Assembly: GCA_029891345.1 (NCBI GenBank)
Contig: CM057009.1
Location: forward strand, 309,817,666-309,881,665
Reading direction: 5' to 3'
DNA from: Dryococelus australis
Lineage: Eukaryota > Arthropoda > Insecta > Phasmatodea > Phasmatidae
Length of the DNA stretch: 64,000 nt
The notes beneath the pieces were generated by a model. The model did not search any database, was not told the DNA's origin, and saw nothing but the letters and a program-made list of their open reading frames with translations. Below, one piece after another: positions 38,991-64,000 of this stretch (its first letter is position 1; each line of letters starts with the position of its first letter). Position numbers and translations under genes: made by a program.

Positions 38991-40450
38991 TCTAGAATGA
39001 CAGTTGGTTCTCCTTGTTGCCTGGTATGATTGGTTTGTTTGACTGGCTAGTATAACTGGTTCATATGATTATTTGGTATGGCTGATTCATGTGGTCGGCT
39101 GGTATGGATGGTTCATATGGTCTGTTCTGTGTGGCTGGGTGACATAGTCAGATTGTGTTGCTGGCTGATATGGTCTGTTCACATGATTCGTTGGTATGGT
39201 TGGTTCGTATTCTGTTTGGCTGTTATGGATTAATTGTATGAATATATCATACGATTGGACTTGAACCATTTGCATACCTAGTAAGTTTTGTGCTGTTGGC
39301 CTGGTTGGGTAGAAATTGTGTTTGGTATGGATGATTTGTATGCTCAATTCGTATGGCTAGCTGTTATGGTTGGTTCGTATGGTCAGGTGGTCTGGTTGGT
39401 TTATATTGTTGGCTGGTATGATTGATTCGTATGGTCAGTTTGTATGGTTGGTTGGTCATGTTTGACAGTAGATCTGGTCAGCTGGTATTACCATTTGATA
39501 TGGTCAACTGTGAGTGAGATGTTTTGCAAAATTTTTCCGAAGATTTGCTGATACTTTGCGGTGTTCTAACAAAGTTTTCCAAAACCTTTGAGCGAAGAGG
39601 TTAGCAATAAGATTCGTACAAAGTGGTTTTTTTTTTTTCAAGATTGGTCGTTATCGTCTGTTGCTACAGATGGATGGCCTTGTCCATTGTTCAATTTAGT
39701 TTTGCAGGAGTTGGTCTCGGCAGAAGCCAGTATTGGGGGGGAGTCAGTTTCGGGTGGAGTCAGTCTTGGGATAAGTCAATCTTGGGCAGAGTAAGTCTTG
39801 AGTGGAGTCAGTTATTGGCCAGTATGTATGGTTGGTATTTTTGGCTGATCTGGTCAGCTTGTATGATCCTTTCGTATGGTCTGAGACAATCACGAGCGAT
39901 AGTGAGGGGGTGTTAATGGCCGACAAAATAACTAATAAAATATAGTTGTGGGAAAAGGTGGTCGAACCATAGTAAGTAAATTGAGCTGGTTGAATTGATG
40001 GTAGTGTAAGAAGTGTGCTCCATGGCTTGGTGGTTATTGTAGGAGGGGAGCCGAATTTACTAATGATATATTCTTCATGTTTGGGGGCCTCGTCGCCAAC
40101 AGGTATGGAAATGGCCGACATGTGAGCTCCCTGGTGGTTGATGCTAAAAACACGAATTACCAACACACTGTAGCGGCCAATACGGTAACTATGGGTTAAA
40201 AGTGCAATCTAGTGACCAACAGATAACAAGATTATTTGACAGAGGTGGAGGTTTCATTTGTTACTTAAAGCCGATAATTAATTTTTGTGGGGGAGGCTGT
40301 AGATTAATCGACTATATAGCCAACGAAATATAAAGTTTTGGGTTCAGTTATCTACTGGTCAACTTATGGGGATGGAGTGTATGCTCCGCTATCTGTACAA
40401 GAACAGAACACTTAATTGTGTGATGTTAAGGCGAATATTTTCTGATTTTT
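38991..40450 (+). repeat. Degenerate TATGGTTGGT-rich low-complexity tract
   Basis: From 39005 to about 39520 the sequence is a decayed short-period repeat of GGT(A/T)TGGTTGGTTCGTATGGTC type. From 39700 to 39880 it shifts to GGAGTCAGTCTTGGG phrases. Similar TATGGTTGG text occurs in the inverted arms (58990-59400 and, complemented, 45960-46400), so the tract may be related to them. No gene. Confidence 0.55.
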
Positions 40451-40925: not shown

Positions 40926-41792
40926 GTGGTTGTTGGAGGAGAGGACTATGACAGCGAATCTGCTGGGCTTGGCTCCGAGCCTTCGAATCCAAAATGCTGC
41001 TCTAAGGAATTTTGGCTCCTGCATCGAGGTGCCTCAAATCCGCTTTGCTCATTTGAGGACTTGGTTGATAAATGTTCCCATTTGGGGTGTGAGCAAGTGT
41101 TATTTTGGTCAAAGTTATCGATTTCTGAAGTGGTTTTTTGGCTAAACTGATACTTTTGTTCTGTCGGACATAGTGAAATTTAACATGGCTGATGGCTCCA
41201 TTTTCCAATCCCTGCATTCTCGGACGGCTCCAAGCTCCGATTCAGACGATCCGTGTCCCCGAAAGTACATAACTATAGTACTGTAAATTTATATTGCTTT
41301 CAATCAGGTGAAAAATCATTCAGTAGTGTAATAATTGTATTCAGTAGTTTATCAATGGCATTTAGGGAAGATTACATATAATGAATGCAACACCGAGACT
41401 ACATTTGAAATTGTTAATGGAATACAGATGAATATGCTCGAATTAAAAAAAAAATTACGCGATGCTTTGTTGCTCAAGGGAACATTCGAATTCGAATTCC
41501 ATTAGTACAAAAGCTTGATTTTTTAAAACTTTACACATGCCTTGAAAATACTAAGATTTTATATGCATGCACTGTCATGATGGCCAGAAAAACAGATCCA
41601 TGATATATAAGTTTGGTAACCTGTGTTAACAATTTTGCCACTGTGTTTGTAGTATGGCCCAATAGGTTAGCTGGTAAATTAATTTTAGATTATAATAATA
41701 ATTTGGGTGCTCTGTCTATTTGGCCTATGCTGACTGCAAAATAGGCCATAGAAAGAAACCGCAATATGCAGGATGATCGACCTAACGTGTAG

Positions 41793-42140
41793 ACCCCCAA
41801 AATTTCCGGAGTAGTTTCAAATCACGAAATGCGGTTTTCGCTAAATTATGTATGGGGGCAAGTAATTTTCTGCAAAGTGATAATTCGTAACATGCATATA
41901 TATGGACAGAAATATTTAAATAACATATGATTTTTCCCCTGGAAAAATACATTTATTTCAACGGCATCTGAAAGTGCATGCAAAGAGAGATTCAGTGATA
42001 TAGCACATGCAATGGAAAGTAACACAGAAATACCAAGAAATAATGTGCAAATATGATTAAGTTAAGTGGGCCGGTGCCATTGGGAAGTGGACCTGTACTC
42101 ACAGCTGTAAGCAAGCAACATGTCCCGTTAGTTATCTTGG
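41793..42140 (+). repeat. Left long terminal inverted repeat
   Basis: It starts near ACCCCCAAAATTTCC and ends near CAGCTGTAAGCAAGCAACATG. It pairs with 43605-43950 over about 350 bases with scattered differences and small gaps. Confidence 0.85.
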
Positions 42141-43604
42141 CAGGACCTCTTCCTAGTAGCAGTACAGCACCATTCCCAATAATCTGTCATCTTAAGTGTT
42201 ATTGCAGAGTGTGGCTGTACATGAGCAATGAAGTTCACGAATTAGGAAAATCTGTACCCTCTACTCATTTATGGTGAGTGTGGCAGAAATGACGACCAAG
42301 CCGTCCAAATATATGGTGAAAGGTATCCTAATCGGGCGCCTATCTCATGGCAAACACTACAAAGAATTTGCACACGTCTCTTGTCACAAGGTGATTGTAA
42401 TTCCACATTAGTGCGACGAAAGACTGCTATGAACGAGACGCATATACACTGTGTGTTGGCACATGTCAATGCAAACCCCCAAATGGGTACACGAGAACTT
42501 TCCAGGTTCGTAGGAATAAGTAAAACTCGTGTGTTACGGATACTGCACCAATGGAAATTCCATCCATATCACTTGGCTATTCATAAGGCATTACATGAAG
42601 GTGATTTCCAGCAGCGTGTTCAGTTTCGCAGGTTTGTTCTGATCTATGTAAGTGATGACAGCAATTTCCTGAAGATCATACTATTTACTGATGAAGCGAC
42701 CTTCACAAACCATGGGCGCATAAATTTACGAAATATGGACTACTGGGAGACGAAAAACCCCCATTGGGTCAGCCACGTGGAGCATCAGCGACAGTGGAAA
42801 GTGAACATGTGGTGTGGAATCGTTGGAGACTACATAATATGGCCATACTTCATTCAAGGGACTAAGACCGGCTGTAAGTAAGCCTATTTTCCTCAGAAAG
42901 ACTTTACAGGCACTTCTGGAAGACTTACTGCTCGACATACGTCGTGATATGTGGTTTCAGCATAATGGTTGTCGTGCACATTTTCCTTTGGTGGCAAGGC
43001 AATTGTAAAATGAAACCTTTCCAAAATGGTGGTTAAGGCGTGTTGGTGTTGTAAGGTGGTCAGCTCGCACCCCCGACCTCACACCTCTCGAATTTTTCCT
43101 TTGGGGAACACTGAAATATAGGGTGTACAGCACAGTTCCTACGACGCCAGAAAACATGCAGGAATGCATTGTGGCAGCTTGCTGAGGTATTACACCAGAA
43201 ACACTTCATGCTGCTCGTCGCTTGCTACATGCGCGTTTACAGACGTGTATTGCTGTCGATGGTAAACTCATCGAACTCATGCTGTAAAAAGACCTAATGT
43301 AAGCGTTTCAACCATAACTGTGTTCTTTTGTACTACGCATGCATATGCGATTGCATTTTTGTTTAGGTTGGTTTGTTCTATTTTTGTTGTACATCTGTAC
43401 GCACTTGTTACTCAGTACAGTTAATTACTAAGAAACAAATCTCCTGAACTAAATTGGTATCTGAATAAAATGTAGTGATATCAGACTTGCACTCGCATTG
43501 CCCGTCTTCCCTCTGCTGAAGTGCTTTCTTTGTCCAATGTCGCATTCCGTGCCTTTTGCCCAATTAAGGTAATGCTAAGCTGCTACAAGGAAGCGGTTCT
43601 GCCA

Positions 43605-43950
43605 AGATGAGTCACGGCACATGGTGCTTGCTTACAGCTGTAAGTACAGGACCACTGCCCCATGCTACCGGCCGACATAACATAATCATATTTGCACATT
43701 ATTTCGTGGCGTTTCTGTGATACTTTCAATCGCATATCCTATATCACTGAATTAATCTTTGCACGTACTTTCAGATGCTATAGAAAAAATGTTGTTTCGA
43801 GGGGAAAAATCATGTGTAATTTTATTATTTCTGTACATGCACGTTTTACAAATCATCACTTTGCGGCAAATTACATGCCCCGGTACGTACTTTCATTTAG
43901 CGAAAACCACATTTCGTAATCTGTAACCATTATGGAAATTTTGGGAGTTT
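43605..43950 (-). repeat. Right long terminal inverted repeat
   Basis: The reverse complement of the left repeat. The terminal phrase on the plus strand is GGAAATTTTGGGAG. The exact outer boundary and TA duplication are not certain. Confidence 0.85.
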
Positions 43951-44289
43951 CCATATTAGGCGGGCCATTTTGTATAATGAGGAACTAATTTCAATTCATA
44001 CAAACACAAAATAAAATTTCAGTTCTGGACCACTGGGATACTCCAATCCAGATAAAATAGAGAGGAACAGAAAGCAGTAAGGATCTTTACCAAACCAAAG
44101 ACAGCATGATCACAGTTCCTGAATTCACTCAACTCTCAAGAAATGTACTCTGTACATTTTTTCTCAATAAACTTCAGTGAATAGATATAGTTTCTTCGGG
44201 CACACCGGGATCCGGGAGTGGATCGGTGGATATGGACGTCATGTTGGCTGATGTCACGTAACTTCCATGTTGGATTCTGCCATGTTCGT

Positions 44290-44430
44290 AGCTAGTATGC
44301 CACTATCTTTGTAGCCAGTATGTCATCTTGGGCCGCCATATTTATAGCCAGTATGTCACCATCTTGGACCGCCATTTTTAAAGCCCGTACATCGCCATCC
44401 TGGACTGCCATCTTGGTGACCAGCATGCCA
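44290..44430 (-). promoter_or_regulatory. Tandem YY1/Pho-like motif cluster, left arm
   Basis: Repeated phrases of about 30-36 bp contain CCATCTTGG and GCCGCCAT (minus strand: CCAAGATGG, ATGGCGGC), separated by GTAGCCAGTATGTCA. AAGATGGCGGC is the known YY1/Pho consensus. Binding is inference only. Confidence 0.5.
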
Positions 44431-44943
44431 TTTTATCAAGCTCTTGCATTTCGAGGGATTTCTCCGAGTGCTCACATTTTTTCTTTGGTATTCTTTATGT
44501 TTCTTTCTCTCTACTTCTCTCTCCTTATTTACTTTCTTCCTTTCTCTTGCTCTTTATCTTTCTCTCTTTCTTGCTCTTTCTCTCCCATTCGTTCATTTGT
44601 TTACATCAGCTGTTACTGGAGGCCGCCATCTCGGTTGTTGTCGTTTGTCATTGGAGGCTGCCATCTTCGTTTACATTTACATGGAAGCCATCATCTTTGT
44701 TTACATTTACATGTAGTCCACCATCTTTGTTTTTTATTTGTCATTTGTTTCCCACTTTAGTTATGGCATTGGCCGTTATGAGCGCCGCCATCTTGGTTCT
44801 GGCATTGGCTGCTAGGTGGGGCACCAGTCGTTCGATTAGTCGATCTCGCATCTGCTGCATGCGCTCGGCCGCCATATTCGTTCTGGAGTTGGTACTTGAG
44901 GCACTGCTTTTTTTAGAACTCAAAAAACTATCTGGAATGAGCA

Positions 44944-45000
44944 TGGGATCGAACTGCCAAACCTTGAGTCGCCAGACTTTAGACTACTCGGCTATTGCGA
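44944..45000 (-). other. tRNA-Leu-like Pol III promoter segment, left arm
   Basis: On the minus strand an A box TAGCCGAGTAGTC, an anticodon-arm-like ACTCAAGG and a B box GCAGTTCGATCCC follow one another as in tRNA-Leu (CAA type). The acceptor stem does not pair, so it is tRNA-derived, not a tRNA gene. Transcription would run outward to the element end at 44180. Confidence 0.6.
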
Positions 45001-47170
45001 CATGCATTGGGACAAGAGTTTATAAGAACCTATATAGCTTGGAGACAAATAAATAATATCTTGTCTCTCGTTAAAGACATTACATTTTTATTTCTTATAT
45101 AATTTCTAAGGTTTTTATTTACATATCAATAATTTTTATGTATCACTTTTTGTATTATTTACATATAATAATTTTTATATATAATATTATTTTTTATTAT
45201 ATTTTTAAGTTTTTTTTATTGTTTTGGTTTAACTTGTATATATATATATTATTTAAATTTTAACTTATATACTTTATAAGTATTTTATTTTTATTTTTAT
45301 CATTTTGTATATCATATTTTTATTTAACTTTTATAAAGAAGTGTATTGAGTGTCGTGTCTACAGATTTGTATTTTTTAGACAGATAAGAATATGTTATCA
45401 GAAAAGATATATGACTACGTGACTATGACAAGTGACATATTGGATTTTTTAATAACTATATATAAAAAATGGATTAGTAAATATATGCCAAGTGTCATAT
45501 CTTAGGAACATTGATTATTCACACATTTTCGATTTTTATTTACATGTAATAATTTTTTTTTCCTATCCCAGACTTAAGTATTTACATTCCCAGACTTAAG
45601 TATTTACATGTAGGGACTTTCTAACGTATGTTGAACTTAGAAAATATTTCCTACCCCTATTCTAGGACTAATAAATTTTTCCAACAGACCATCCCATTAT
45701 CATACAGAACAGTTCAATATCGACTTAACCTTACCTTATCATATTGTAAGAACTCTGGATATATATTATATTTCTCTCAACTTTCACTTAACCTAACCAC
45801 CACACTCTAGTCATCTCCAGAACCCCTCTTCTCCTCCCCTTCTTACAGTCTTAATTATCAACTATATTGAATGGTATTGAGTACCAAATAAGATATAAAT
45901 CCCTTCACCATAGCATTAGCTTGTCTCATTCGTGCTATTAAAAATACAGGTCATATCCACCACCATACCTCAGATTTTCCATTTCAGCCCATATAACCTC
46001 ACCAGTTACACATATAAACAAGCCATACCAGCAGCCGAACCAATCAAATATTCCAATCATAAGCTCCAACCATGCTATCATAAGATCAATACTATTAATT
46101 TAAACATCTACGACACCCATATTGTCTTAATTCCCAAATACCATCCAATCATAGTAACCAACCATACCAACTAAGCGTTCTGCCCCTCTCATGATAACTA
46201 AACATCCCATCAAACCATTACACTCTTACAAACTAGTCAAACAAATAAAAACCCATTCTCCTCACAGCATCGAAGCTACACTTTCTTCATAGTGCCAAAA
46301 AAATCAAACATGTGATCAGGTCATACCAGTCAACATAACAGCTATACCAAACATATACGGAAAATAACAGTACAACCAAATCAATCTTGTATGCATTCTA
46401 ACCCAAGTCAGGACTTTGAATATATTTTTTATTTGGTTTATCTCGCCATCCACTTAACCTAATCACCAGTCCAAGTAAAAATTCCATTTAGTCACCTTCG
46501 CTGTCCACCTCGTGTAGAACTTAGAATGTATTTTCATATTGTGTAGGACAGTGAATATTTTTAACTTAGTCACGCCCATTCTACCCCATGTCAGGTCTTT
46601 GAATATTTGTTATTTCTCTTGACATTTTTTTTTATATCATGAAAAGTGTACCTATAGAGCTACGGAGCGAGTCATTTTTGAGCCAAGAGTCAAATAATCA
46701 GTCTTGTGAGTGGTCGGTCTGACAGGAGTTAGTTGTCTGCTTTAATTGTGACGATGAGTTCAACCTGGGTGAAGATAACACGAGGACGAAATATATTTTC
46801 TCATTAAGAAGAACTTACTCACTTGCATCCAAAATATTTACCTCATTTCATTCATTGGCCATTTAGAACTCAATCGCTGTTACGAATACTATAGCCTTCC
46901 TACAACATGCGCTCGCATAAATGTTGATTTAAAATACCACTTTTTAGATAAGTCTTTCAGGGAAGCAGAAATACATATTAGTATGAATATATACATTTGT
47001 ATGTTATTATTTACGTTACTTTTCTTTTTATTCGCATTCATGTTATGCTATTCAATAGATAAATCACTGCATTTTTGCAGAGTATATGCTCTACCAATCA
47101 TCATCAGACGAGATGTGCGCACCATTTACTAGAATTCAAGCAGGCCTCAGCCCTCATTGACCGTACCAAA

Positions 47171-50100
47171 ATACTCACACGTCCAACATGTTTGTCATAG
47201 CACCAGGCACCGGCCAAATATCATACCAGACATTAATATAAATCATTATATCAACCAACAAACTAGTTAATTATGCCAGCCATCCATATTAATAGCTAGG
47301 TGAAACCTACAAGGTAACATACCTCCAGCATACTTAACAACCATATCGAATGGTAGCCTACTGAGTACTGAAACATATATACTGTATAATAACTTTCACC
47401 ATGTTAAGGGGTTAAACAATTTTTTTTTTTTTACTATATGTAATTTCACCTTTGATATGCCTTTATATAGGCGTGATCGACGTAATAAATAGTTATGTTT
47501 CAAGTGTGAAATATTCCAATCCTTGTTATTAGCGATGCTGCGATATACGTCTGGGCCAGAGTACTGGGTTCGAATCTGGTATCATGTTGTCAATATGTTC
47601 AGAAAATTTTTACGCTTTGCATATGTCGTCAATTCATCATAGTCTGTAAAATATGCATTTATCATAGCAGTTTTGAAGTCCGCATTTTCGTTCTTAGGGA
47701 CACCTGGATTTTTGTTTACAACTTCTGGCAATCTGTATCTCTCACATTTTTCATAGCAACACTTTTATTTCCCTTCATCATCCATTGTGTTGAAACACGA
47801 TAAATGCTCGCGCAATGTTATGGGCGCTTTCGCTGAAGATCTTGTCTCCGCACAATAACGAAATTGTTAGGCGAATAATATATTAAAGGCAAAATGAAAT
47901 TATTCTGGAGTCGGGATCAAATTAATGTTATTAATGGTGCAAGTTTTCGTAAGATTATTAGCGCAATTCGTGCACTGTTTAGTGTGCATGTGCACCTGTT
48001 ATAAATCTGTAACTGTAAGGGATGGCGTAGGGACCCGTGTCCGTAGTCCGGAAGTATTCAAAAAATATTAATTCACTTTCGGACTTAGAAAAATATCGGA
48101 CAACGTTTTCCAAATGATGGGAGAAAATGTGTCTTTAAGAATAAAAAACCATATAACGAAAATGGAATTGATTTGTCCTGGTAATTGTAACAGGCCCGAT
48201 TTGAGAATTAATTGTATGCGTGTATATATGTATGTGTATATATAATATATAACATAATACATAGAAATATAAATTATATTTAATAACAAGTAATTACGAT
48301 TTATGCATAAATCTTGTGTCGAGCAATGTGTAAATTATGTGAATGTTTACTTCTCATAGGACACTACAGCCGTGTCAGACTGTAAAAGCGAATGCCTGTT
48401 TACAGAATATTAGCAAACAATTATATCTTTCAGTCTCGTATTGACTACGTTCTCGGGAAGCTGTACCTAGCTAAACAAGAACAAGAAAGGTGTAAGAATT
48501 GAAATGAAATATATTTTTGTATAAACAAATAGAATACTGTAAAATATTTTAGCCCATCAATACATCTTGACGCCAAAATCACAGAATCACGCAATTAAGC
48601 GTGTGTTTTCTATTATCTGCGCTTCTTAACCGACTAAGTTTTACAGAAAAAAACTGTTTTATATTAATTTGAAAAATATCAAGTTTGTAGCAAATTTTCG
48701 TCAGCAGTCCCATTTAAAAACATAATTATATTAACATTGAGTTAATCGTATAACACTTGATGGGAAAAATATTTGGCTGCTTTGAGGATACGATAGAGGG
48801 TTTTACGTGAACACGCCTGCATTAGCAGGTCTTAGCGCCTTAGCACATCGGAGTCGTGAGATGTACTGCCCGGAAATGTTTGTCCTTGCCCGAAATTGCA
48901 AACAGTCGCCGAGAGCCCCCACCCCGCCTCACATGCGTTCGACACCAACTCAAGATCATGCCCGCATCCTTGTATACAAATCTAACGAAATCACGTTTAT
49001 TTCAATAGTAAGTGTATTATTGTTATAGGGCGGAATGGATATCTCTGCAATAATTAGGCTACATCGTCCTGGTTGCCATGTGTCGGTCTGATTTTAAAGA
49101 CGTCTTCACGACACAGATTTTTTGGCCTTAATTTAACCCCTTGCTTGTACCCGCAGTGCCGTCTGTGTTGTGCGCTCGCGAGAGAGTACTGAAAGCGTCT
49201 GACTTGAATAAATTCCATTTTACTGCTGAACAGTCGAGGTTCATACAGAATGCCTATAGACAGTTTTGTTCCTTTAGAACTACGAGATAAAATAAAATGG
49301 CAGTGCACTTCTCCCACTCTTTATTTCCATACATATCAGTCATTTTCTATTTTTCTGCCTAGCAGTTTACTCCATTACAGCTGTCAAAAAAAACTTGTTT
49401 TACCTAAGGTGAACTCCACTCCCGTGCTGTTCTTTGGGAAGAAGATTAAGTTTGAAATTGGGGCTCAAATATGTTTCTATCGGAAGTTGGTCGGTACTAC
49501 AGGAAATATGTATGTATTGGGCCATGCCGAAATTATGTTTAATTCATAAGTAATAAATAAAACCTATATTGGTCCTAATATTTTATAATTATATTTAAAT
49601 TTATTATTATTATTTCTATTATATATTTATTACTAAAAGAGAGGTAATTACGTAGACAGACATACGTACACGCCACTGATTAACCCACACCCCTGTGACA
49701 TATGGCAGTGATATCAGTTCCTGCAGTGAACTCACTACGAGGATGCCACCCTCGTGTTGGCATACATATGTACAGTAATTGAACAGTTTATTTAAGCTCC
49801 AACATGCAGGCAATAAGCTGTATTTGGCCATTAATACTTAAATTAGAAAAATGTAATTATATTAAACTTATTGGTATATAACTCAGAAAAATTTCAACAT
49901 TATAATTTTTTTTAATGCCGATTACTCTATTTTCTTCTATAACACCAACAAACATCAGCTGACACAGTAATTTGTAAACGGTGCCGGAGGAGTTAGTTTA
50001 CGAGTTCTCCTAACTTAACAACACCGCTTTGTGTCCAGGGTTGTATGTTACTGAGAAATAAGGGCCCCTTCGTTTTTTTTCTGAAAATAAATAATTAAGT

Positions 50101-50540
50101 TACAACCACAACACACCACTAGGGTGTATTGTCCCTACGATTCACCTTATAGGTGAATAAATTCACTGTCAGTGGCCACAGTCAGTAAGTGAATACGTAT
50201 TTTCACGTGTGTGTCACTATACCTTGGTTTGAAACTGTGGTAGATCAATGAACATTTTATTTATTATGTCTGTAGTAGTAATTCTCAGAACATCAATAAC
50301 TAATTCCAGAAAAAGACCATAGTTGGATAAAAATTAAAGCAATTTAAAAAAAAAATTATAAAACTGAATTATTATTTTACCATGAAGAAATAATTGACAA
50401 GAAAAGAAAATTAATTATATTCGTAAAGAAATTACACAAGGAATAAATAAATAAAATACTCAAATACATTTACGTACACTATTTATTTAGTACGCAGTCA
50501 TTACAAAACATATTTATAATTTTTTAAAAATTAGTTGTTG
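47171..50540. other. AT-rich interior between the inverted arms, left part
   Basis: No gene recognised. A tRNA-like segment at 47529-47583 (plus) has a B box GGTTCGAATCTGG. The frames at 48807-49028 and 49250-49549 have no family resemblance. TA-rich short runs occur near 48225-48275. Confidence 0.45.
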
Positions 50541-50547
50541 TAGTTCT

Positions 50548-50922
50548 CTACTTTCGAAGACTGTCACATACAATGCTAAGAAGTTCTCGAATGACTGTAA
50601 GCATTAGCTTCTTGCGAAAGGCAGCGCCAGTCTCTGGATCATGACGATGTCCATCGGCCCCCAGTTGACCATCCACCTCATAACAGCAGGACTGCAAATC
50701 TTGCTCCTCCTCAACAGTTGGTTCTACGACTTCTGCCTCTCGAATGGTGGGACCACCGACAACAGCAGGTCCGGCATCCACAGCTCTAAGAATATGCACT
50801 GCTGGGCGGCGCCGACGGGTAGGTGCAGGTTTTCGTTTCCCGAGATGGAGGCAGACACATGCGTGGCGAGTACCGTCACGTTGGGCTGGCGCCGACACCA
50901 GCTTTAAATTATCAATTGACAA
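50548..50922 (-). CDS. Unrecognised open frame, 124 residues
   Basis: An intact minus-strand frame with an Arg/Pro-rich middle (T-R-R-R-R-P), an acidic stretch (V-E-E-E-Q-D-L) and a Leu-rich C-terminal helix-like end. It directly follows, with no gap, the protease-like end of the LTR fossil on the same strand. It could be part of that element, a captured host piece or chance. The C-terminal helix faintly recalls BESS-type tails, which is not enough for a call. A polyadenylation site was not identified. Confidence 0.3.
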   Translation of the reverse strand: MSIDNLKLVSAPAQRDGTRHACVCLHLGKRKPAPTRRRRPAVHILRAVDAGPAVVGGPTIREAEVVEPTVEEEQDLQSCCYEVDGQLGADGHRHDPETGAAFRKKLMLTVIRELLSIVCDSLRK

Positions 50923-51395
50923 GAATTATTGCGAAAAATTAGATAGAGATGCGTCAATATCCTCAGTTGCGCCTGCTGGAGAAAATATTCCCTTAACTGG
51001 GGTTCGTTTGTCTTTATTCACTAAGGTGGTCGCCATCCAGGAACGAGAACATCCTGTATCCATTAAGGCATTATATGTTTCCCCAGCTAGTCTCACAAGG
51101 ACACGCGGTGTTGATGTTTTCACATACCCCGTGCGACACTCCTCCTTAGCGACTGGCTCGGTCTCCTTATTGAATGACTCTAAGAACGGCCGGTGGCTCA
51201 GATTTCGCTGACACCTTTCAACACCGCCAACTGGTCCCGTGTAGTTATTTACAGGACTGTGTGCTCCCGTGCGTGGTAACTCAATTCGTGTCTCACCAAT
51301 CCCGAACCTTTGTTTAAATCGGTGGAACTGCGCCGCAACGTCTGTATGAAATGGGACCTCCCTATCGGGAAATAATAGCAATCGTCCGCTGATGA

Positions 51396-53276
51396 TTTCT
51401 GTACAAACATAGCACACACACACATACACACACACACACACATGGATGACATTCCCGAGCGCGGCCCGACGAACGCTGTTCTTGTCGTCTTGACGCCACT
51501 TTCCCATTCTTGCTGCACGGCCGTGTCGCACACCGCCGCTTCCACGATGCGAGGAGTGACGTGTTTTCTGTACAAACATAGCACACACACACAATGGATG
51601 ACATTCCCGAGCGCGGCCCGACGAACGCTGTTCTTGTCGTCTTGACGCCACTATTGTGGTTAGGTTCCCATTCTTGCTGCACGGCCGTGTCGCACACCGC
51701 CGCTTCCACGATGCGAGGAGTGACGTGTTTTCTGTACAAACATAGCACACACACACACACACACACATGGATGACATTCCCGAGCGCGGCCCGACGAACG
51801 CTGTTCTTGTCGTCTTGACGCCACTATTGTGGTTACGTTCCCATTCTTGCTGCACGGCCGTGTCGCACACCGCCGCTTCCACGATGCGAGGAGTGACGTG
51901 TTTTCTGTACAAACATAGCACACACACACACACACACAATGGATGACATTCCCGAGCGCGGCCCGACGAACGCTGTTCTTGTCGACTTGACGCCACTATT
52001 GTGGTTAGGTTCCCATTCTTGCTGTTCCAGGCCGTGTCGCACACCGCCGCTTCCACGATGCGAGGAGTGACGTGTTTTCTGTTCAAACATAGCACACACA
52101 CACACACACACATGGATGACATTCCCGAGCGCGGCCCGACGAACGCTGTTCTTGTCGTCTTGACGCCATTATTGTGGTTAGGTTCCAATTCTTGCTGCAC
52201 GGCCGTGTCGCACACCGCTGTTTCCACGATGCGAGGAGTGACGTGTTTTCTGTACAAACATAGCACACACACACATACACACACACACACATGGATGACA
52301 TTCCCGAGCGCGGCCCGACGAACGCTGTTCTTGTCGTCTTGACGCCATTATTGTGGTTACGTTCCCATTCTTGCTGCACGGCCGTGTCGCACACCGCTGC
52401 TTCCACGATGCGAGGAGTGACGTGTTTTCTGTACAAACATAGCACACACACACACACACATGGATGACATTCCCGAGCGCGGCCCGACGAACGCTGTTCT
52501 TGTCGTCTTGACGCCATTATTGTGGTTACGTTCCCATTCTTGCTGCACGGCCGTGTCGCACACCGCCGCTTCCACGATGCGAGGAGTGACGTGTTTTCTG
52601 TACAAACATAGCACACACACACACACACACATGGATGACATTCCCGAGCGCGGCCCGACGAACGCTGTTCTTGTCGTCTTGACGCCACTATTGTGGTTAC
52701 GTTCCCATTCTTGCTGCACGGCCGTGTCGCACACCGCCGCTTCCACGATGCGAGGAGTGACGTGTTTTCTGTACAAACATAGCACACACACACACATGGA
52801 TGACATTCCCGAGCGCGGCCCGACGAACGCTGTTCTTGTCGACTTGACGCCACTATTGTGGTTAGGTTCCCATTCTTGCTGTTCCAGGCCGTGTCGCACA
52901 CCGCCGCTTCCACGATGCGAGGAGTGACGTGTTTTCTGTACAAACATAACACACACACACACACACATGGATGACATTCCCGAGCGCGGCCCGACGAACG
53001 CTGTTCTTGTCGACTTGACGCCACTATTGTGGTTAGGTTCCCATTCTTGCTGTTCCAGGCCGTGTCGCACACCGCCGCTTCCACGATGCGAGGAGTGACG
53101 TGTTTTCTGTACAAACATAGCACACACACACACACACATGGATGACATTCCCGAGCGCGGCCCGACGAACGCTGTTCTTGTCGTCTTGACGCCACTATTG
53201 TGGTTAGGTTCCCATTCTTGCTGCACGGCCGTGTCGCACACCGCTGCTTCCACGATGCGAGGAGTGACGTGTTTTC
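51396..53276. repeat. Minisatellite: 11 units of about 170 bp, CpG-rich with a variable CA tract
   Basis: The landmark ATGGATGACATTCCCGAG begins at 51442, 51594, 51767, 51939, 52112, 52291, 52460, 52631, 52796, 52967 and 53138, with spacings of 152 to 179 bp. Length differs mainly in the (CA)n tract before the landmark; the first unit also lacks a stretch of about 16 bp. Two linked variants, GTCGAC for GTCGTC and CTGTTCCAGG for CTGCACGG, occur together in units 4, 9 and 10 only. Units are otherwise nearly identical, so amplification is recent. It sits between the gag-like and protease-like parts of the LTR fossil. Confidence 0.97.
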
Positions 53277-54005
53277 ACGGGCGCGACGATTTGTTTGTTT
53301 TCCGGTTTGGCCTTGAAGTTGATGTCTTAATTAATGCTAATTCGCCCTGATCTGCTTTGTGCATCCCGGAATGTGATGCAAGGTCGCCTGTCTGCAACGT
53401 TTCGTTGTTTACTCTGTGGTTTATTTCCCGGACTCTGAGATCGCTGTTGCGTTTGAAATTCTTGTCTGCGGGAACTAAATGTGCCAATTTCTGCGTATGT
53501 GCGATTTGGTACTCTCTTTGCAAATAATGCCTGGCATGTATTAAAAACATGCGAAAATTTGACTTCGGGTGGAACGTGTCTTTTGCCCTGACTTTGCCGA
53601 TGTGTGCCTGGAAAGTATTAATAACATGCGGAAATTTAACTTCGGGCGGAACGTGTATTTTGCCCTGACTTTGTCGATGTGTTTCTCCCCACGGACGGTC
53701 CTGAATTTTATGGTCGTCTCATAAGGACCCTGCCTGTCAGTTTCGTGCTTGGAATTGTTTTTGAGTAGAATTATTGTGTGGGTGTTGTACCTCTCCACAT
53801 TGTCCCATTAAGGGGCCTGGCTGCCTGTATGGTGTGTAATGTGAATGCATCCTACTTTTGGACCTGTCATACTGGGTGGTGCCTACAGCCCCCTCGTGTA
53901 GAAGTTTTTTTGGTTGTTCTGTTTGCTTGTGTTGGTGTCTCTGCCGTTTTATCGGTCTTCTCTCTGGCTGCGGTTATTTTTTTGTTGCCTCTTATTTGCA
54001 TTATT

Positions 54006-54019
54006 GGGGGGGGGGGGGG
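54006..54019 (+). repeat. Run of 14 G
   Basis: A G homopolymer within the gag-like region of the LTR fossil (a C run on its coding strand). Confidence 0.85.
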
Positions 54020-55966
54020 AGGTTACTGTGAAATTCTTTGAATCCCGATTGTGTGCTGCTGGAAAATTGGCTTTTCACATATTTTTGCTGTTGTGGAGAA
54101 TAGTCTGCCCTTGCTACAAAAGGCCGACGATTTTGTTGGTAACTAGAGTTTGTGTATTGAATTTGAGTTTGAGATTGTTTGTGGTATTTGGTGCGTTTTT
54201 GATTCTGTATCGCCATCTTCGCGATTTCCTCTTTTAATTTTACTACTTCCTCTTGTAATGCATCTGTGTCCAACATTTTGTGGTACTACGTTATTGCCTG
54301 ATTGTACTGGAAAATACCTAATTCCGCTCTCTGAATATTTGTTATAGTGTCATTTTTAAGGCCAACAGTTTTATCTGCTATGGAAGGTAGTATGGAGTGC
54401 CATATTATACCTATGAAGTCGGTATCAGTTACATTGGGATTGTATTTGCGCCTATAGAACATGAGAGTTTCAATGTGTTTTTGACTGCTCTCGCTTAATT
54501 TCTGTTTAGTGGTGAACAGAATTGGTTTTTGGTACTCTTCGATGGCCGGTGTGGAGAATGTGGTTTTGAGTGTGTACAATTCCTGGCCATGTTAGTTCAC
54601 CTACACGAGTCTGTTGGTAGTTGTCTAATGTATGCTTATCTGATCCTCTTACATAGGATTTTAGCTTTTAACATTTGTCCTCCTCAGTCCAATTATTGTT
54701 TTCGGCTGCATGATTACACTGTTCAATGAAACCTGCCCATTTTCCTGTATCATCGCCTGAAAACGTGGGTATTTGCATAGGTTGTTGGACGGTGATATTC
54801 ACCGGTGGAGCGTTTGTCATGTTGGCCGTTTGTGGTGTGTCCTCGAGTGATAACGCTAAAGTGAATTTTCGTAAAAGTTTTCTGTGGTGTCAGTGTTAAT
54901 GTGGACTGGTGTAAGACAATCTGATGTGTGTTGTTCAACGTTTTGGTATGTGGGTGGTGGGTTTGTCGGCAAAAGGCCGCTGTTGGAGATCTTTGTAATG
55001 AGGCTACGCGTAATGCGTGTTGAGGTGGTATTAAATTGATCAATTAATTCAGGATTTTCCTGTAAGAGTTTCTCTGTGAATTCAATTAAACTTTGCAATT
55101 TGTATACTGTCATTGTGTTACGGGCTGATAGTTTTTTTTTTTAGTGTCAGACAAATCAATTGCTGGGTGTTTAATTATACTGCGAGCTGTGTTCAAAAAC
55201 GACGTGTCAGCTTTATCCATCATAAAGTGTGGTAGACTGTCTTTCAGTGGAACTTGTGGCCTTAATAACTAACATGCACACACATAAGCTGGCCTTAGTA
55301 ATTTTTTCCACACTACGAACGCCCTTGTGGAATTTCTTCCGTTTGAAAAGATTAAAGCGGTCCGAAAAGCGGCCGTGATTTGTCATGCATTAACTTTTAA
55401 CGAAGCGAAAGCACACACACACACTCACTACACTAGAATGGGTGCCTTGGCGTGCCGAGGAAACTGCAATCCGGCTCTTTTGCCCGCACGCACTGGCGTG
55501 GCTGGAATTCGCTGAGAAGCGCAACACTTTGTGGCTTTGAATGACTTTAGCAAGTGCACAATGTCACTATGGTTTACTATCGCTCTATCGCGGTTACTAA
55601 AGTGCGTTGGCTTTAAAGCTTCCTCACAGAGGGTAAAACCCTGGGTGGCAGGTATTATGACGTGGTTGTGTATTCTGATTTTAATCGGAAATACCAATGC
55701 AATGACTTGAAGTGAAAGAAATAACACCATTGCCTCAAGGCTTGTTCACTCTTGAAGTTAATTTTCTATAACCTGCACGATTTTGCCAGGGAATGGAACC
55801 CTGTGAGTTGGTGGAAGTTGATACTCTTTTCTAATTATTACTAAGCTTTAATTATGTGGCTACAATGTTAATTCTATCTTCCACTGATTTTAACTGTAAT
55901 TTACTTTACTTTAAGCTGTGAGTGCACTAAGGGGGAGGTTGGAAGCTTCGGCTGCCTCCACCATTT

Positions 55967-56661
55967 GTTGTGACCTGTCCTGAGGATGAATCAGGCCATG
56001 CAATGAAGGGGGATAGTCGTAATAGAGCACTCAATATACAAAATACTATGTTTATTAATCTCACAGCTTCTATACAGTATTACGCATAACTTGCACCCTG
56101 TGTTGCTTTACAATCAACCATATATCTCTACTTCGCAGTTATCCAGTATAGTAATTAGAATCTACTGCACGATTGTAATTACTTTAATTAGTGTGATCAT
56201 GACTCTGAGGGAGTCTTAAGGATTGCCCGAAGATCCTAACTCTGCACGACCTAGGGTACCCTACTGGGATTATAGTTACCCTGGCTATGTCTCGTCGTCG
56301 CCAACGTGCAGACATCCTCGACTTTGGAAGTGGCTGGCGTCGAAGTAGGGCCACAGGCCTAATGATCCTCACTGAAGTCATCCCGTCGTCCTCTGGAATC
56401 AAGATGGCCATGAGCTGCCATCGCCCCAGCCCAGTCTTATATAGGGCCCTGCCTGGCCTCAATACCATCCTTGGCAGGGGATGTTTCGCAAACAACCGGA
56501 CTGGCCTCCGAGGTCGCACCATCCTGGACTCTCACACGTCGCTTGCCAGCCCTGGCTAATAGTGTAGTCACTGTAGATGGAGTCACTGGTTTCTTCTGTT
56601 GTAGTATCACTGAAGGATGAGTCACCACTGTTGTTATCATAGCCACTGCTGCTGGTGTACA
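55967..56661 (-). repeat. Candidate LTR of the minus-strand retroelement fossil
   Basis: On the minus strand it would begin TGTACACC and end CACAACA (TGT...ACA). It contains TATATAAG at 56443-56436 and AATAAA at 56056-56051, in promoter-then-polyadenylation order. Two or three bases after its end comes TGGTGGAGGCAGCCG, a plausible primer-binding site. No second copy was seen in the window, so the outer boundary is provisional. Confidence 0.55.
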
Positions 56662-56866
56662 TAAGCTATGGTTCATGAACAAACAAATCTGAATTAATTA
56701 TGTAGTCCAGCTTGAATTGATATGAATATTTTTGGGGAAAATCTAGATTCTCGAAGCAGTTTTTGCCTATATACGGAGCACAAATTGATGCACAACATGT
56801 ATCCATTGTTGGTAAACGACCAAGTGTGTCTTTCTTAATAATTCTATAATGTTGTTTACCATTGCA

Positions 56867-57268
56867 TTATTCTCTGTACTTCATGTCCTTGGGGTCCCTG
56901 GGCATCGCATAAGACGGTGTTAGCTTCGAAACACAGAGATGAACGGCGCAATTACTATCTTCACACACGAAGAGGGTTACTACCCTGGAGGTTTCGTGTG
57001 GTGAAAATTCATTCCACTGAAGATGGAAATGTATGTTCTCACTACACATTTCAAAGTAAATCGAGCTGTAAATAACACCACACTCATCTTTAGAAGTAAT
57101 GCCATACTGCACACAATGTAAGACTTCACGCACGTAGTCGTAGCCAGTGCTGGTGTTGTACATTATGCATGGTGCCGACACGGTGCTAGTAGGATCAGGC
57201 AACAGGAACACCACTTCATCTTCCTCACAGTCTTCAGAGAATTGTTCAACATCATATTCAGGATCCAT
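56867..57268 (-). CDS. Unrecognised open frame, 133 residues
   Basis: An intact minus-strand frame starting M-D-P-E-Y-D-V-E, with an acidic N-terminus (S-E-D-C-E-E-D-E) and eight cysteines, several in the pattern E-V-L-H-C-V-Q-Y, F-E-M-C-S-E-N and F-V-C-E-D-S-N-C. No signal peptide or known motif is seen. Shorter frames at 57796-57533 and 57990-57840 on the same strand have a similar Cys/Trp-containing look and may belong to one decayed or spliced gene of the enclosed 11-kb segment. Chance cannot be excluded. Confidence 0.35.
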   Translation of the reverse strand: MDPEYDVEQFSEDCEEDEVVFLLPDPTSTVSAPCIMYNTSTGYDYVREVLHCVQYGITSKDECGVIYSSIYFEMCSENIHFHLQWNEFSPHETSRVVTLFVCEDSNCAVHLCVSKLTPSYAMPRDPKDMKYRE

Positions 57269-57936
57269 GGTGGCTGTGCTGGCTGACGGGTTAACTGTAG
57301 ACTGGGCAGAAGAAAAATGGTTTCAGACCGATGCTCAGACAACACATGCAGTGTACACATCACAGGTTAGTGAGGTGCACATAGTCTCCCAAGTTGATTT
57401 ACCATGTTTCGAAATGGTGGTTTCAGGTTCTCCATTGCAGTGCTCATACCACCAGGTAATCTGGTAGCTGTCTGGCCTTCTGAGTTAATATCCAATTGTG
57501 CTATTGCCCCAAATTTGATGTAGCCGTTCTTCTTATGCTTGACTTATCATCTCACTAGTAGTACAGGGTAGCTTCGAGCCTGGTCGGAGGTGGTACACTG
57601 GGCAGCTAATAAAGCTGCATGGTACTGAAACCAAGCTGAAAAAACCACATTCTTCATTCATGCTGATCCAATGTTCAAATCTGTTGCAGACTTGTGCGTG
57701 CTCTGGCATACCAGGTATCCAGAAATGAATGTGACAGTAGCCCACAGTAATATAAGAGTAAATGGCAGCATCTTCAGGTCGGAACTGCACAAACATGATG
57801 GGATAAAACTAATACTACGAGCCTTCTTCTCCAATTTTATATATCAGCTTCCCCATTTCCGCTGAATTTTCCCACTGCGCCACCATTCCAGATGGGTCAG
57901 TGTATAGCTCGTGAAGCCTGCTGACTCATTATCTTT

Positions 57937-58200
57937 AATTACCAGATGCCGGTCTGTTGCAGAAATGCTAACATAGCTATTACCACGCACGTGGTCATCC
58001 GACACTATGTAAATTGTGAAAACGACTTGTAAGCACCTACAGACTCCAATTACCAGACACCAAGCAGGTGTAGAAATGCTATATGCTGATTTAGGCTATC
58101 TGACACCATCAATATGTGAAAACGGCCAGGAAGCACGTACAGACTCCAGTTACTGCGCAGGTGCAGACTTGCTACCAATGGGCTTGACAGTGACAATGTC
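57937..58200. repeat. Short tandem duplication, 100-111 bp period, about 2.5 copies
   Basis: AATTACCAGA-like starts recur at 57937, 58048 and (diverged) 58148. Each is followed by AGAAATGCTA, CATC(C/A)GACAC-like text, GTGAAAACG and AAGCAC.TACAGACT. It lies just inside the right inverted arm. Confidence 0.7.
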
Positions 58201-59621
58201 AGCTGGCCCTCAGATAAAATGAAGGGGGTAATGGCGTGGTGAGTTTAAATCTAGCAATGGTCCGGTCAAGATGTCTGAACTGTGGGCTGTGGTATGCTTG
58301 ACTTCTAGTAAGAGGTATGAATATATATATATATATAGTCTGATGATTGTTAGTAGAGCAGATATTCTGCAATAATGTGGGGAACTATCTATTGAATAGT
58401 ATATAACATGTATACGAATAAAACACAAATAAACTAAAAAATGTATATATTCAGCGTAATACATATATGTGCTTCTCTGAAAGATTTATTAATTCGATGG
58501 TGTTTTAAATCAAATATATGTGAGTGTGTGTCGTTGGAGGGATATAGTACTCATAACATTGACTGAGTTTTAAATTGCCAACGATAGCTGGTAACTAATC
58601 ATCATTGCCCTGCCAGTGAATAAGTTCTTTTTAATGTGAAAATATATTTCGTTCTCGTGTTATCTTCGCTCAGCTTGAACTCATGATCACACTTAAAGCA
58701 GACACATAAATCCTGTCAGACTGGCCATTCACAAGACTTATTCTTTGACTCGTGACTCTTGATCCTTGACCCATTGACTCAAAAATGACCCAAAAATGAC
58801 TTGCTCCATAGCTCCATACGTATACAATTTTATAATTTTTTTTTATATATTGAATATTTTTAAAATGAAAAAAATAATTATAAGTTATGTACATGACTAG
58901 AGTGTGGTGGTTAGGTTAGGTGACGTCAGGTTTAGTGGATGTTGATAGAAATAAAATAAAATATATTCAGAGTCTCATACAAGGTGGAATAAATACAAGT
59001 ATGGCTTGGTTGAATTGTTAGTTTGCTTGTATGGTTGGTATAGCTGTTATGTTGATTGGTATGACCTGATCACATGTTCGGTTATTTTGGCAGTATGACT
59101 AAAGTGTAGCTTCGATGGTGTGAGGAGAATGGTTTAATTGTGTTATTAGTTTGTAAGAGGGGAGTGGTTTAATGGGATGTTTAGTTAGTATGAGAGGGGC
59201 AGAAACCTTAACTGGTATGGTTGGTTATATTATTGAATGGTATCTGGGAATTAAGACGATATGGCTGTTATAGATGTTTAAATTAATAGTATTGATCGTA
59301 TGATAGCATGGTTGGAGCTTATGATTGATTAGGCAGCTGGTATGACTTATTTATATGTGTAACTGATGAAGTTAGATGGGCTGAAATGGTAGCCAATATA
59401 GTTGAATATTATTATTGAACAGTAAGTCCGAGGTATAGTGGTGGATATGACCTGTATTGTTAATAGCATTAAATTGTTGTCAAGTAAGACTGGAAGAAGG
59501 GGAGGTGAAGAGGGGCCTGGCAATGACTAGTGTGTGGTGGTTAGGTTAAGTGAATGTTGAAAGAAATACAATATATATTCCGAGTTCTTACAAGATGATT
59601 AAGAAAGGTTGAGTGGATACT

Positions 59622-59925
59622 AATTATAAATGTGTGTAGGGGTGGACCCAGGGTGAGGCAACACCCTCCTAGTTACGGGCTTTCCAGCCGAGACCCGTAG
59701 GTGCCCATCATCCCTGAACATGACATGAAATGAGACCCTATGATGGAGCGGTGCTGGAATGTAAGGGTGGGGGAAAAGGGAGTATCCCAAGAAAACCTGC
59801 CGGCAAGTTGCATCATCCAGCACGATTCCAACATGCAAAAGTCAGGGAGCTAACCCACCAGGGATCGAACCCAGATCGCCGTGGTGGGAGGCGAGTGCGC
59901 TAGCCACTGCGCGACCACTGTCCCA
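59622..59925 (-). mobile_element. tRNA-derived SINE, minus strand, inserted in the right arm
   Basis: On the minus strand a tRNA-like head has an A box GCAGTGGCTAGCGCACTCGC and a B box GGGTTCGATCCC (59870-59859), followed by the body shared with the copy at 19190 (GCATGTTGGAATCGTGC and later blocks). Flanking 10-mers AGTGGATACT (59612-59621) and AGTGGCTACT (59926-59935) are a target duplication with one mismatch. The left arm lacks the SINE at the matching place (about 45725). Confidence 0.92.
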
Positions 59926-60623
59926 AGTGGCTACTGAACTCTTATGAATGATTATGTGATGGTTTGTTGGAAAAAAAATTATAAAATCCTAGCATAGAGG
60001 AAGGAAATATTTTCTAAGTTCAACATAGGTTAGAAAGTCCCTAGATGTAAATACTTAAGTCTGGGATATATTTAAAAAATATCTATTGTTAATAAAAATC
60101 GCAAATGTGTGAATAATCGACGTTCCTAAGATATAACACTTGGCGTAGTATATTTACGAATACAAATTTTTATATATGCTTATAAAAAATCCAATATGAC
60201 ACTTGTCATAGTCACATAATACTTTTTTTGACAACATATTCTTATCTGTCTAAAAAATACGAATCTGTAGGTACGTCACTCGATATGCTTGTTGGTAAAA
60301 GTTAAATAAAAAATATCATACATCAAATAATTAAAATAAAATTCAAAATACTTTAAAAGTATATAATATAAATCTTCAAAAATATAAATGTAAGTTAAAC
60401 AAAAATAATGAAAAAACTAAATCAATAGAATAAAAAATAATATTGTATAGAAAAAATTTACATAAATAATACAAAAATAAATACTTAAAAAATTATTGAT
60501 ATAAAAATAAAAACCTTTAAAATTATATAAGAAATAAAAATGTAATGTCTTTAATGAGCGACCAGATATTATTTATTCGTCTCCAAGCTATATAGGTCAT
60601 ATAAACTCTTGTCTCAACGCATG

Positions 60624-60688
60624 TCGCGATAGCCGGGTGGTGTAAGGAGCTTGTCTGGCAACTCAATGTCCGGTAGTTCGACCCCGCA
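60624..60688 (+). other. tRNA-Leu-like Pol III promoter segment, right arm
   Basis: A box GATAGCCGGGTGGT (60629-60642) and B box GTAGTTCGACCCC (60673-60685), with CTGGCAACTCAATGTCC between. It mirrors 44944-45000 and points outward to 61378. It is not a functional tRNA by stem pairing. Confidence 0.6.
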
Positions 60689-61129
60689 CCCATTCCAGAC
60701 GGGTAGCACCCCTAGCAGCCAACTCCAGAACCAATATGGTGGTGCTACTAGCAGCAAATGGCAGAAATAATGTGAGAAACAAATGGAAAATGAAAAAACA
60801 AAGATTGCGGCCTCTAGTAACAAATGACAAATGTCAACATCCAAGATGGCGGCCTTCAGTAACAGCCAATATGAACAAATGACGGACTAAGGGGAGAGAA
60901 AGAAAAAAGAGAAAGGTATAGAGAAAGAGAAAGGAAGAAAGGAAATAAGGAGAAAGAAGCAGAGTGAAAGAATGCGAAAGAATGAAAAAGAGAAAAATGG
61001 GAGCACTCGGAGAAAACCCTCGGAGATTAAGAGAGAGACGTATAAAGAAGGAAAGAAAGAGTAAGAAATAATGCAAAAGAGAACAAGAATGGGAGTTCTC
61101 AGAGGAAACCCGCAGAATGCAAGAGCATG

Positions 61130-61325
61130 AAAAAATGGCATTCTGGTTACCAAGATGGCAGTCCAAGATGGTGACGTACTGGCTACAATGATGACAATGT
61201 ACTGGCTACAAAAATGGAGGTCCAAGATGGTGGCGTACTGGCTACAAATATGGCGCCATACTGGCTACCAATGTGCTGTAATACAAGATGGCGGTAGCAT
61301 GAGATCATCTAACATGGCGGCCAGA
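61130..61325 (+). promoter_or_regulatory. Tandem YY1/Pho-like motif cluster, right arm
   Basis: CCAAGATGG(C/T)(G/A) and CATGGCGGC phrases recur near 61150, 61166, 61211, 61283 and 61313, separated by GTACTGGCTACAAA. It is the mirror of the cluster in the left arm. A further CCAAGATGGCGGCC is at about 60841. Confidence 0.5.
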
Positions 61326-61378
61326 TCCACCGATCCACTCCCGGATCCCGGTGTGCCCGTAGGAACTATATCTATCTA

Positions 61379-64000
61379 CTAACTTCCTACATTGTAATGG
61401 AAAATATAAACAATATATAGAATGGAAAATTTACTAAGACTACAATGTTACTATGTATACACAATTGGATATTTCACTATGCATTTTACCATTTCCTGAA
61501 CAAATGTAGGAAAGCTACGATAGAAGTATGGAAAAATAAACTATACAATTCGTGCATTATCAGTACATGTTTTAAGTGATGTAAATTTGCAAAAATTTTC
61601 TTATGGAGTGAGGTCTCTTTTCATCGGCTTATGATTCGATGACGTGAAATAGCGAGACTTCCCAATTAGATTTCTCTGTTATTCACATAATTGGTAGAGA
61701 CATTTAACTGTCTTCCTCGTTCGTCGTTTCCTTACCTGGACTGCCAGTGAAAGCAATAAATGGAATAAACATCACGGTCAGTAGTGGTATACATGTCTCT
61801 TAATCCGAAGTATAAGTGACTAACTTAATTGTCAAGTGGGTTTTTAAGTTTTGCTCATATGGTCAGGTCCCTTTCAAATATAGGTGGATATACATATTTT
61901 AACTTAAAATTACGAAGATTTTACAACTTCTGTTAGGGACTTTGAATTACTTTGTTTGCGCATGAGAGTTGAGAGCATTTTCGATTGCTTGTCTGAAATC
62001 GACACTGATTCACGATAATTACTGTTGTCATTTAAGCATGTAATATTTAGTAAAAATTAGTTATTATTTCCGACTGTTTCTAATGAGATATAACCTTTGC
62101 ATATGTTGAAAAAAATTAACTTATTTGTTCTTAGTACACTTACCTTTCTGCCGCTTCTGATAATAATTTAAGTGTACAAACATTGCTGACCGAATAATGT
62201 TTTCAGAATTCAAGACTGATCCTGCCATGCTTGTTAATTGATATTTTACAGTAAGGCGAATTATAATTTTTCCATTCGGTAATTTTCACCCACTTATTTT
62301 ATTTCCAGAATTATGTTTTCCTGCGGTATTTATTTTACCTATATTATAGTGTTCTATAATATACTGTCTTTCAGTCGGAATGTGGTTCGGATCTTTTCAC
62401 AATCAAAAAGTAACGCCGCCTTTTCCTTTTCTACAAATATCTTGACTAAACCAAAGCCAAAACATTTTTCACTGCTGGATGTTAGACTGTTGCGAGTTGC
62501 TGGCGATTACTTTTCACTAAAACTACTGCTTCGCTAGTTAACGCATCAGCTCCTAAAATGTGATTCTGCAGCTAACTTTATGTCTCAAATGTTTATGTGT
62601 GCGACGTGTAGCTCTGCGATGGTTATTGACATCTGCTGTCTGCGCCGAGAGCGTAACAGTAGCGGGCAAACACAATCGTAATATGCGGTTATAGTCCATT
62701 CACGACTGGAAGAAACTTTTGAAAACGAACCTTTGAAATAACACCCCACGCGTAACATGTCAACTATTTTGCCAGTAACTTGTATTCCACAAATATGTAA
62801 CACTGTGATATACTTTTAAGTACTGTATTCGTGAATAAATTAAACTGTAACTTAGTATCTTCTATAACTTGTAATATTTATTTCGTATTGAATATGAATT
62901 AAAAACAGTGAGACCAGCGACGTGTTGGCAACGGTCGGTTAGAAATAGTTCACATTAAAAATATTATTTTAACATTGTTTTTTTGTATGCTATTTGTAAA
63001 TTGAACGTTGCCTATTAAAATATTTAAATAGCCAGGTAGCCCCGATGACAACATATTTAATTTTTACAGTTTAAATTAACAGTGAAAAATATCGTGCGTA
63101 AGCAAGTTACGATGTTGTGGTAAATCTGTGTTTCCATGGCAGTAATAAATATACTGTTACGTGTGTTTCATTAATCGCTGCGTGTGAAATGGCGTGACGC
63201 TGATGCGTGGTGGTCGTTACTCTGGCCCTGTGTGTGTGCGTGATTTCAAATATTTGATGTGCACTGGTTATACGTTTTAACTGTGAACTGTTTTTATAAC
63301 GAAATTATCTATTTACCACCACGTCGGTTTATTTATCACAACTTTGTACCGTTGCCCTAGATGTTTGAAACACAGTCGTGTAACGTAATTTGCCACAATC
63401 CCAACAATATACTAAGCCCAGCCTGATAAATTTCAATAAACCTAATAAACAGTAAGTAGCAATACATAGAAATATGGGCGGAATAAAAGTTACGGTGGAC
63501 TTATTTGTGTGAATGTCCACAGCTATATTTTAAGTTTGTATGGCAAAAAATAAGTGACACGAGTTGCATGCTTGAAATGAATGTGTCTTTTTCGTTGACT
63601 GGTTGTTTCGTCGTTTTAATATTTATTCCAACTGAGGCCGTCCTTTTAAAGAAATGACCAACACATATCAATAAGAAGAGTTAAATACTACACTTCTTTA
63701 CCCCGCAGTTAAACACAGTCGCGGCAAAATATTAACATGCATTACGTGTAATGTGCTATGTCGTGGAAAACAAATATGTTAATGTAAAATAACCGTAAGA
63801 ACTATCATCAATTCAGGCATTTTAAAACGTCATGAAGCTGACCTAAATTATGGTATAGGCCTATACACTTAATATTCGTACGGAATGGTTTTTGGAATAT
63901 GACAGATTCCTTTGAAAAGCTGCAAACAGTAAATAATGCATTAGACAGGTATAAAAGCAGAAGTCACATTTCAATGTTTATGTTTAGGTGTAACGAAAGT
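61379..64000. other. AT-rich stretch beyond the right arm, no gene recognised
   Basis: No exon, transposase or tandem repeat was recognised. The frames at 62313-62534 and 63520-63329 have no family resemblance. This could be more intron of the host gene or intergenic DNA. Confidence 0.45.

Follow-up and report, generated by a model that had tools for sequence, protein, structure and literature searches.

A 17.2-kb insertion with terminal inverted repeats of about 3 kb in the phasmid Dryococelus australis, very probably a non-autonomous relative of Polintons/Mavericks

The DNA between positions 44176 and 61380 of the window (the whole 64,000-nucleotide stretch of the D. australis genome that was analysed) very probably arose by one old insertion of a Polinton/Maverick-related, non-autonomous element with terminal inverted repeats (TIRs) of about 3 kb, and the copy appears to have decayed and taken up other repeats since it inserted. 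Its exact ends are given by a flanking duplication and its length is 17,205 bp. The duplication, AACTTC, is a perfect 6-bp direct repeat abutting both outer ends (Table 1). The termini are AGT...ACT, and the ends read inward as AGTGAATAGATATAG (left) and AGTAGATAGATATAG (right), with terminal bases AGTGAAT and AGTAGAT. Self-comparison of the window gives collinear inverted blocks from 44176 to ~47156 and from 61380 to ~58281. On global alignment the arms, each of about 3 kb and facing inward, are 80.8% identical over 2,598 ungapped columns (K2P 0.22), as against 43-44% in three alignments with a shuffled right arm. The SINE-like repeat of the right arm is absent from the left in the self-comparison. 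A sequence-only reading of this DNA had proposed long inverted arms with about 11 kb between them. The arms are real, and ~11.1 kb separates their inner ends. The length it gave them, ~2.9 kb, becomes ~3 kb, and the sharp outer ends that it put at 44180 and 61378 are indeed exact but lie at 44176 and 61380.

Table 1. Features of the element and its flanks, in window coordinates
Feature	Position	Strand	Basis or occurrence elsewhere
Left target site duplication AACTTC	44170..44175	+	Flanking sequence read
Left arm (TIR)	44176..47160	+	Self-comparison; inner end approximate, from last blocks 47114-47156
Terminal ~55 bp, AGTGAATAGATATAG...GGGCACACCGGGATCCGGGAGTGG...	44176..44230	+	Portion in common with otherwise different elements
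Left (distal) interior	47160..48125	+	Common to arm-bearing loci L011, L018, L022, L028
Distal interior	49413..50335	-	Collinear with C1:151730434-151731276, 67%, 972 columns, E=2.4e-98
Gag-like stretch	50926..55140	-	Gag-like frames and sub-threshold aspartyl-protease match; no LTR pair
Tandem array	51426..53276	.	Unit ~171 bp (345 bp as double unit), CA runs
Right interior	56563..57703	-	Common to L015, L023 and partly L010, adjoining their arms; occupies C1 polymerase position
151-codon ORF	56867..57322	-	No Pfam family; homologues in L015, L023, L010, 71-78% amino acid identity
Spacer	57651..58227	-	Homologous to C1 stretch from arm to polymerase 3′ end: 79% over 321 columns, 83% over 53
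Right arm (TIR)	58275..61380	-	Self-comparison and alignment; inner end approximate
tRNA-type SINE-like repeat	59744..59918	-	Right arm only; resembles 19197-19367
Right target site duplication AACTTC	61381..61386	+	Flanking sequence read

The perfect AACTTC at both ends, taken with the facing arms, argues that a 17,205-bp unit was inserted once and that these are not two stray repeats. The sequence-only reading had left the choice between one large transposon with giant TIRs and two inverted copies of an unnamed interspersed repeat. The former is upheld by the exact ends, by the duplication outside them (which that reading had named as a sign of a single element) and by recurrence of the arm-interior-arm plan elsewhere in the genome. 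The latter, two independent copies in opposite orientation by chance, would be in keeping with the dispersal of the arms in the genome searched (3,415,067,245 bp in 646 contigs), where the left arm gave at least 112 match rows with 40 scored of 7,989 candidates. It would also be in keeping with the 65 of 81 merged arms for which no partner is listed. It is nonetheless extremely unlikely: a perfect 6-bp duplication located exactly at both outer ends has a chance of 1 in 4,096 per fixed boundary, both flanking interiors reappear beside arms elsewhere in the genome, C1 included, and close pairs of arms face inward without exception among the matches listed. The 81 merged arms derive from 80 of the 112 left-arm rows and 65 of the 86 rows of an arm-plus-spacer search, weak rows being omitted and 40 candidates being scored in each search. 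Eight pairs among them (16 of the 81 arms) are less than 40 kb apart; all eight are inward-facing, with spans of 2.9-17.2 kb. Lone arms at varied spacing, which had been proposed as grounds for abandoning the single element, do occur in part among those listed, but each search scored 40 candidates and the pairs all face inward.

Twenty loci of 10 kb around arms (L009-L028) were read, the arms there having 67-82% identity to those of the window in main blocks. The interiors adjoining them fall into two classes, one with the window's left interior (the four loci in Table 1) and the other with parts of its right interior (L012, L014, L015, L019, L020, L021 and L023). Facing arms are present within L012 and within L013. 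L025, a bounded element, measures 8,348 bp; its target site duplication (TSD), TGCGAT, matches at 6/6 positions and both ends read AGTTGTA, but its inverted end is only 203 bp long. Facing termini on C9 and on C5 each have AGTAG at both ends and a 5/6 duplication (GATACT/GATAGT and CTTATC/CTAATC respectively). With the window (6/6), 6-bp duplications thus flank four of the four bounded pairs read. With up to 3 mismatches allowed, the terminal core matches the genome 64 times and the reversed control pattern not once. At 11 loci examined with a terminal probe, five score 44-78 from the first base of the probe, exceeding the highest of 60 shuffles (32); four others begin at the first base with scores of 32-38, and two fall short of it. 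Among the matches listed, neither protein-primed-type DNA polymerase B (pPolB) nor capsid lies within 25 kb of any of 54 termini (54 of the 64 core rows, 10 rows of one tandem array being omitted). At C11:122370244-122370723 the core pattern occurs 11 times in succession at 41-bp steps, and this minisatellite seems to be derived from the end of such an element.

Arm length and spacing differ between loci. This, with very long TIRs that contain internal repeats, is a likeness to Foldback, Galileo and Tetris of flies, as far as the available accounts of these go, and would suit a DNA transposon of the P or Mutator type whose long and variable TIRs are repetitive within. Such an origin is very unlikely here. 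FB makes target duplications of 9 bp and Galileo of 7 bp, unlike the 6 bp of this family. None of the 39 window ORFs scanned (of 56 listed) matches a transposase of the P or Mutator type, and the arms are linked to a polymerase B that they flank.

The link to polymerase B comes from C1. At least 54 genome matches to PF03175 are listed, and a stop-free one, at C1:151724804-151726246, was selected for first reading. Its frame is 635 codons, stop-free and antisense (PF03175 E=2.7e-21), with an Endonuclease_7 match (E=6.6e-6) at its start. From the left the order is arm (L039 1-2332), spacer and antisense polymerase frame, so the arm is on the 3′ side of the polymerase. The mate arm, located by searching the genome with arm and spacer, is at C1:151735020-151736441 and in opposite orientation; it is 92% identical over its initial 514 bases, 81% identical beyond them, and ends where the spacer starts. 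Counted from a tentative left end at C1:151719584, whose terminus score of 32 is no better than the best of 60 shuffles, the TIR is ~3.1 kb, and the copy is at least 18.1 kb from that end to the point where matching of the right arm stops. The right terminus is unrecognisable, hence no TSD is readable for the C1 element. Since the same facing arms enclose polymerase B on C1, they identify the window element as Polinton/Maverick-related.

The window element is collinear with the C1 copy on both sides. Read in reverse it has the right arm, the spacer (58227-57651), 7.3 kb in which nothing matches the polymerase, 50335-49413, 48125-48019 and the left arm; the C1 element carries the last of these interior segments too, within its distal interior, where the two have the same order. 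The centre of the window element, 50.3-57.6 kb, does not resemble the C1 copy. L021, which was picked by its arm alone, also bears the polymerase (82% over 3,184 columns; tblastn 2.9e-118). The two polymerase frames differ at 39, 36 and 40 of 1,110 sites at the three codon positions, and from this equality the two copies appear to have decayed unconstrained since they arose, with no selection visible between them. The family and its setting suggest that the polymerase B is of the protein-primed kind. Two stretches in viral_contigs fit a pattern for relatives of the C1 polymerase, with neither confirmed, and a comparison with solved structures gave no match at E up to 1.

The lack of a polymerase in the window, the lack of a visible integrase in the C1 copy and the difference between the two centres would also be compatible with an unrelated foreign element having acquired Polinton-like arms, the link to pPolB being due to a nested insertion. 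This is very unlikely, since nesting does not yield recurrence of order, orientation and spacing, and such recurrence is found among the listed matches. Of 63 listed arms, nine have a pPolB copy (from 40 listed) at a distance of no more than 20 kb, and in all nine it is on the inner side of the arm. Six are proximal, with the polymerase in the same orientation at 1.5-2.5 kb; three are distal, with it in opposite orientation at 6.4-8.4 kb. The spacer abuts the polymerase at 12 listed loci, in the same orientation at 12 of 12, and distal interior and pPolB form eight listed pairs that are alike in order and orientation in 8 of 8. (The 63 arms are 40 from the arm-plus-spacer search together with 23 drawn from the 41 merged arms that the left-arm search gave; spacer, pPolB and distal-interior linkage uses one main row per locus. 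The arm, spacer and distal-interior counts each include the C1 element, which was the source of the queries, and as they rest on the matches listed they are not genome-wide rates.)

The 6-bp TSD, the AGT...ACT ends, long TIRs and a length within the 15-20 kb of Polintons/Mavericks all place the window element close to them, as does the polymerase B of its collinear relative. AG(T)...(A)CT termini are features of the window copy, L025 and the C9 and C5 pairs, and long TIRs of the window and C1 copies, L025 having only its 203 bp. For intact vertebrate Mavericks the consulted portions of PMC8097293 give TIRs of 46-1,447 bp, unlike the ~3 kb here, and ends of (AGT)2//(ACT)2 or (AG)3//(CT)3. The polymerase is present in the family (C1 and the linked loci) but not in the window copy: PF03175 has no match among the 39 of 56 listed ORFs scanned there (two of which overlap in frame only partly; a frame that is a piece of another is counted once), nor does the C1 polymerase match the window in tblastn at E up to 1. 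In those 39 ORFs and in the C1 ORFs scanned, which excluded 800 bp at C1:151729300-151730099, there is no match over cut-off for an RVE-family integrase or for an FtsK-type ATPase, cysteine protease or jelly-roll capsid. Unlike in Polintons, no Polinton gene was recognised in the window copy within the ORFs scanned, and the polymerase-bearing C1 relative has no recognised integrase, ATPase, protease or capsid in the parts seen. Because integrase, ATPase and capsid were not recognised in the parts scanned, the element is filed as Polinton-related and not as a complete Polinton. The earlier description of it as undescribed is only partly apt: its terminal layout and its collinear relative's polymerase put it among Polintons/Mavericks. 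Double-jelly-roll capsids have at least 126 listed genome matches of 18,148 candidates, up to 309 bits and several of them stop-free. Of the 126, a single one has a listed arm within 25 kb, and a single one a listed pPolB copy within that distance; capsid-bearing Polinton-like elements seem to be abundant in the genome, apart from the listed arms.

The unmatched middle of the window element contains the 151-codon ORF, the 171-bp array and gag- and protease-like frames below cut-off. Homologues of the ORF at three other loci adjoin the same spacer or arm. Its dN/dS values (NG86) are 0.096/0.252 against L015, after removal of 3 stop codons prior to counting, 0.118/0.290 against L023 and 0.111/0.119 against L010. 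The window copy is probably one of a small polymerase-less subfamily. An LTR insertion in the interior, as had been suggested, is in accord with minus-strand frames whose translations were judged gag-like and with an aspartyl-protease match (E=0.024) that is under Pfam's cut-off, but self-comparison of the interior reveals no long direct-repeat pair to flank it. The array, which has about 10 units, is within the element. Matches to DUF429 and RBM39linker above cut-off were rejected as repeat artefacts: the frames cross the array and no stretch passes alone.

Polintons are replicated by a protein-primed polymerase B and inserted by a retroviral-type integrase (PMC4028283, PMC6431247, in the portions consulted). 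The present element probably moved by the same route: protein-primed polymerase B would copy a linear DNA form starting at its two identical ends, which an integrase would then join to a target cleaved with a 6-bp stagger. As the window copy is without a polymerase, both polymerase and integrase would be supplied in trans by other copies. Panhandle or strand-displacement replication might, at a guess, keep such very long TIRs alike. It is conceivable, though doubtful, that a reduced Polinton-type lineage keeps polymerase B and ~3-kb TIRs, has shed integrase and capsid and borrows integration from full Polintons, with a second-order polymerase-less subfamily having the 151-codon ORF in the polymerase's place (the window, L015, L023 and L010). 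Whether the polymerase-bearing core has lost integrase and capsid bears directly on how virus-like transposons decay into parasites of their own kind.

Over half of the repeats of D. australis, 1.56 Gb, are unclassified according to the available part of its genome paper (PMC10268593), and the words Maverick and Polinton are absent from its main text. No paper on the family in phasmids was found in the open-access literature searched. One unclassified repeat family of this species can now be named by its ends, and its kilobase TIRs exceed the range given for vertebrate Mavericks in the consulted portions of PMC8097293.

Several neighbouring features were met in passing. Just outside the left end of the element, at 41781-43960, is a second, smaller inverted pair (~387 bp, 80%). 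Between its arms is an ORF, 42246-42881 (+), with a helix-turn-helix match, DUF4817 (E=1.7e-6), that resembles a Tc1/IS630-type transposase. The segment 39001-41000, with a strong GC skew (0.40 and 0.53) and a 26-bp tandem repeat at 39348-39453, is like the arms in character but does not match them in the window self-comparison. At L009, 1015-1485, a frame with a weak match to a baculovirus-F-type envelope (E=3e-5, slightly under cut-off) is probably from an errantivirus-like retroelement. At L014, 8140-8769, beside an arm, there is a piggyBac-type transposase match (DDE_Tnp_1_7, E=1.6e-22), probably a nested insertion.
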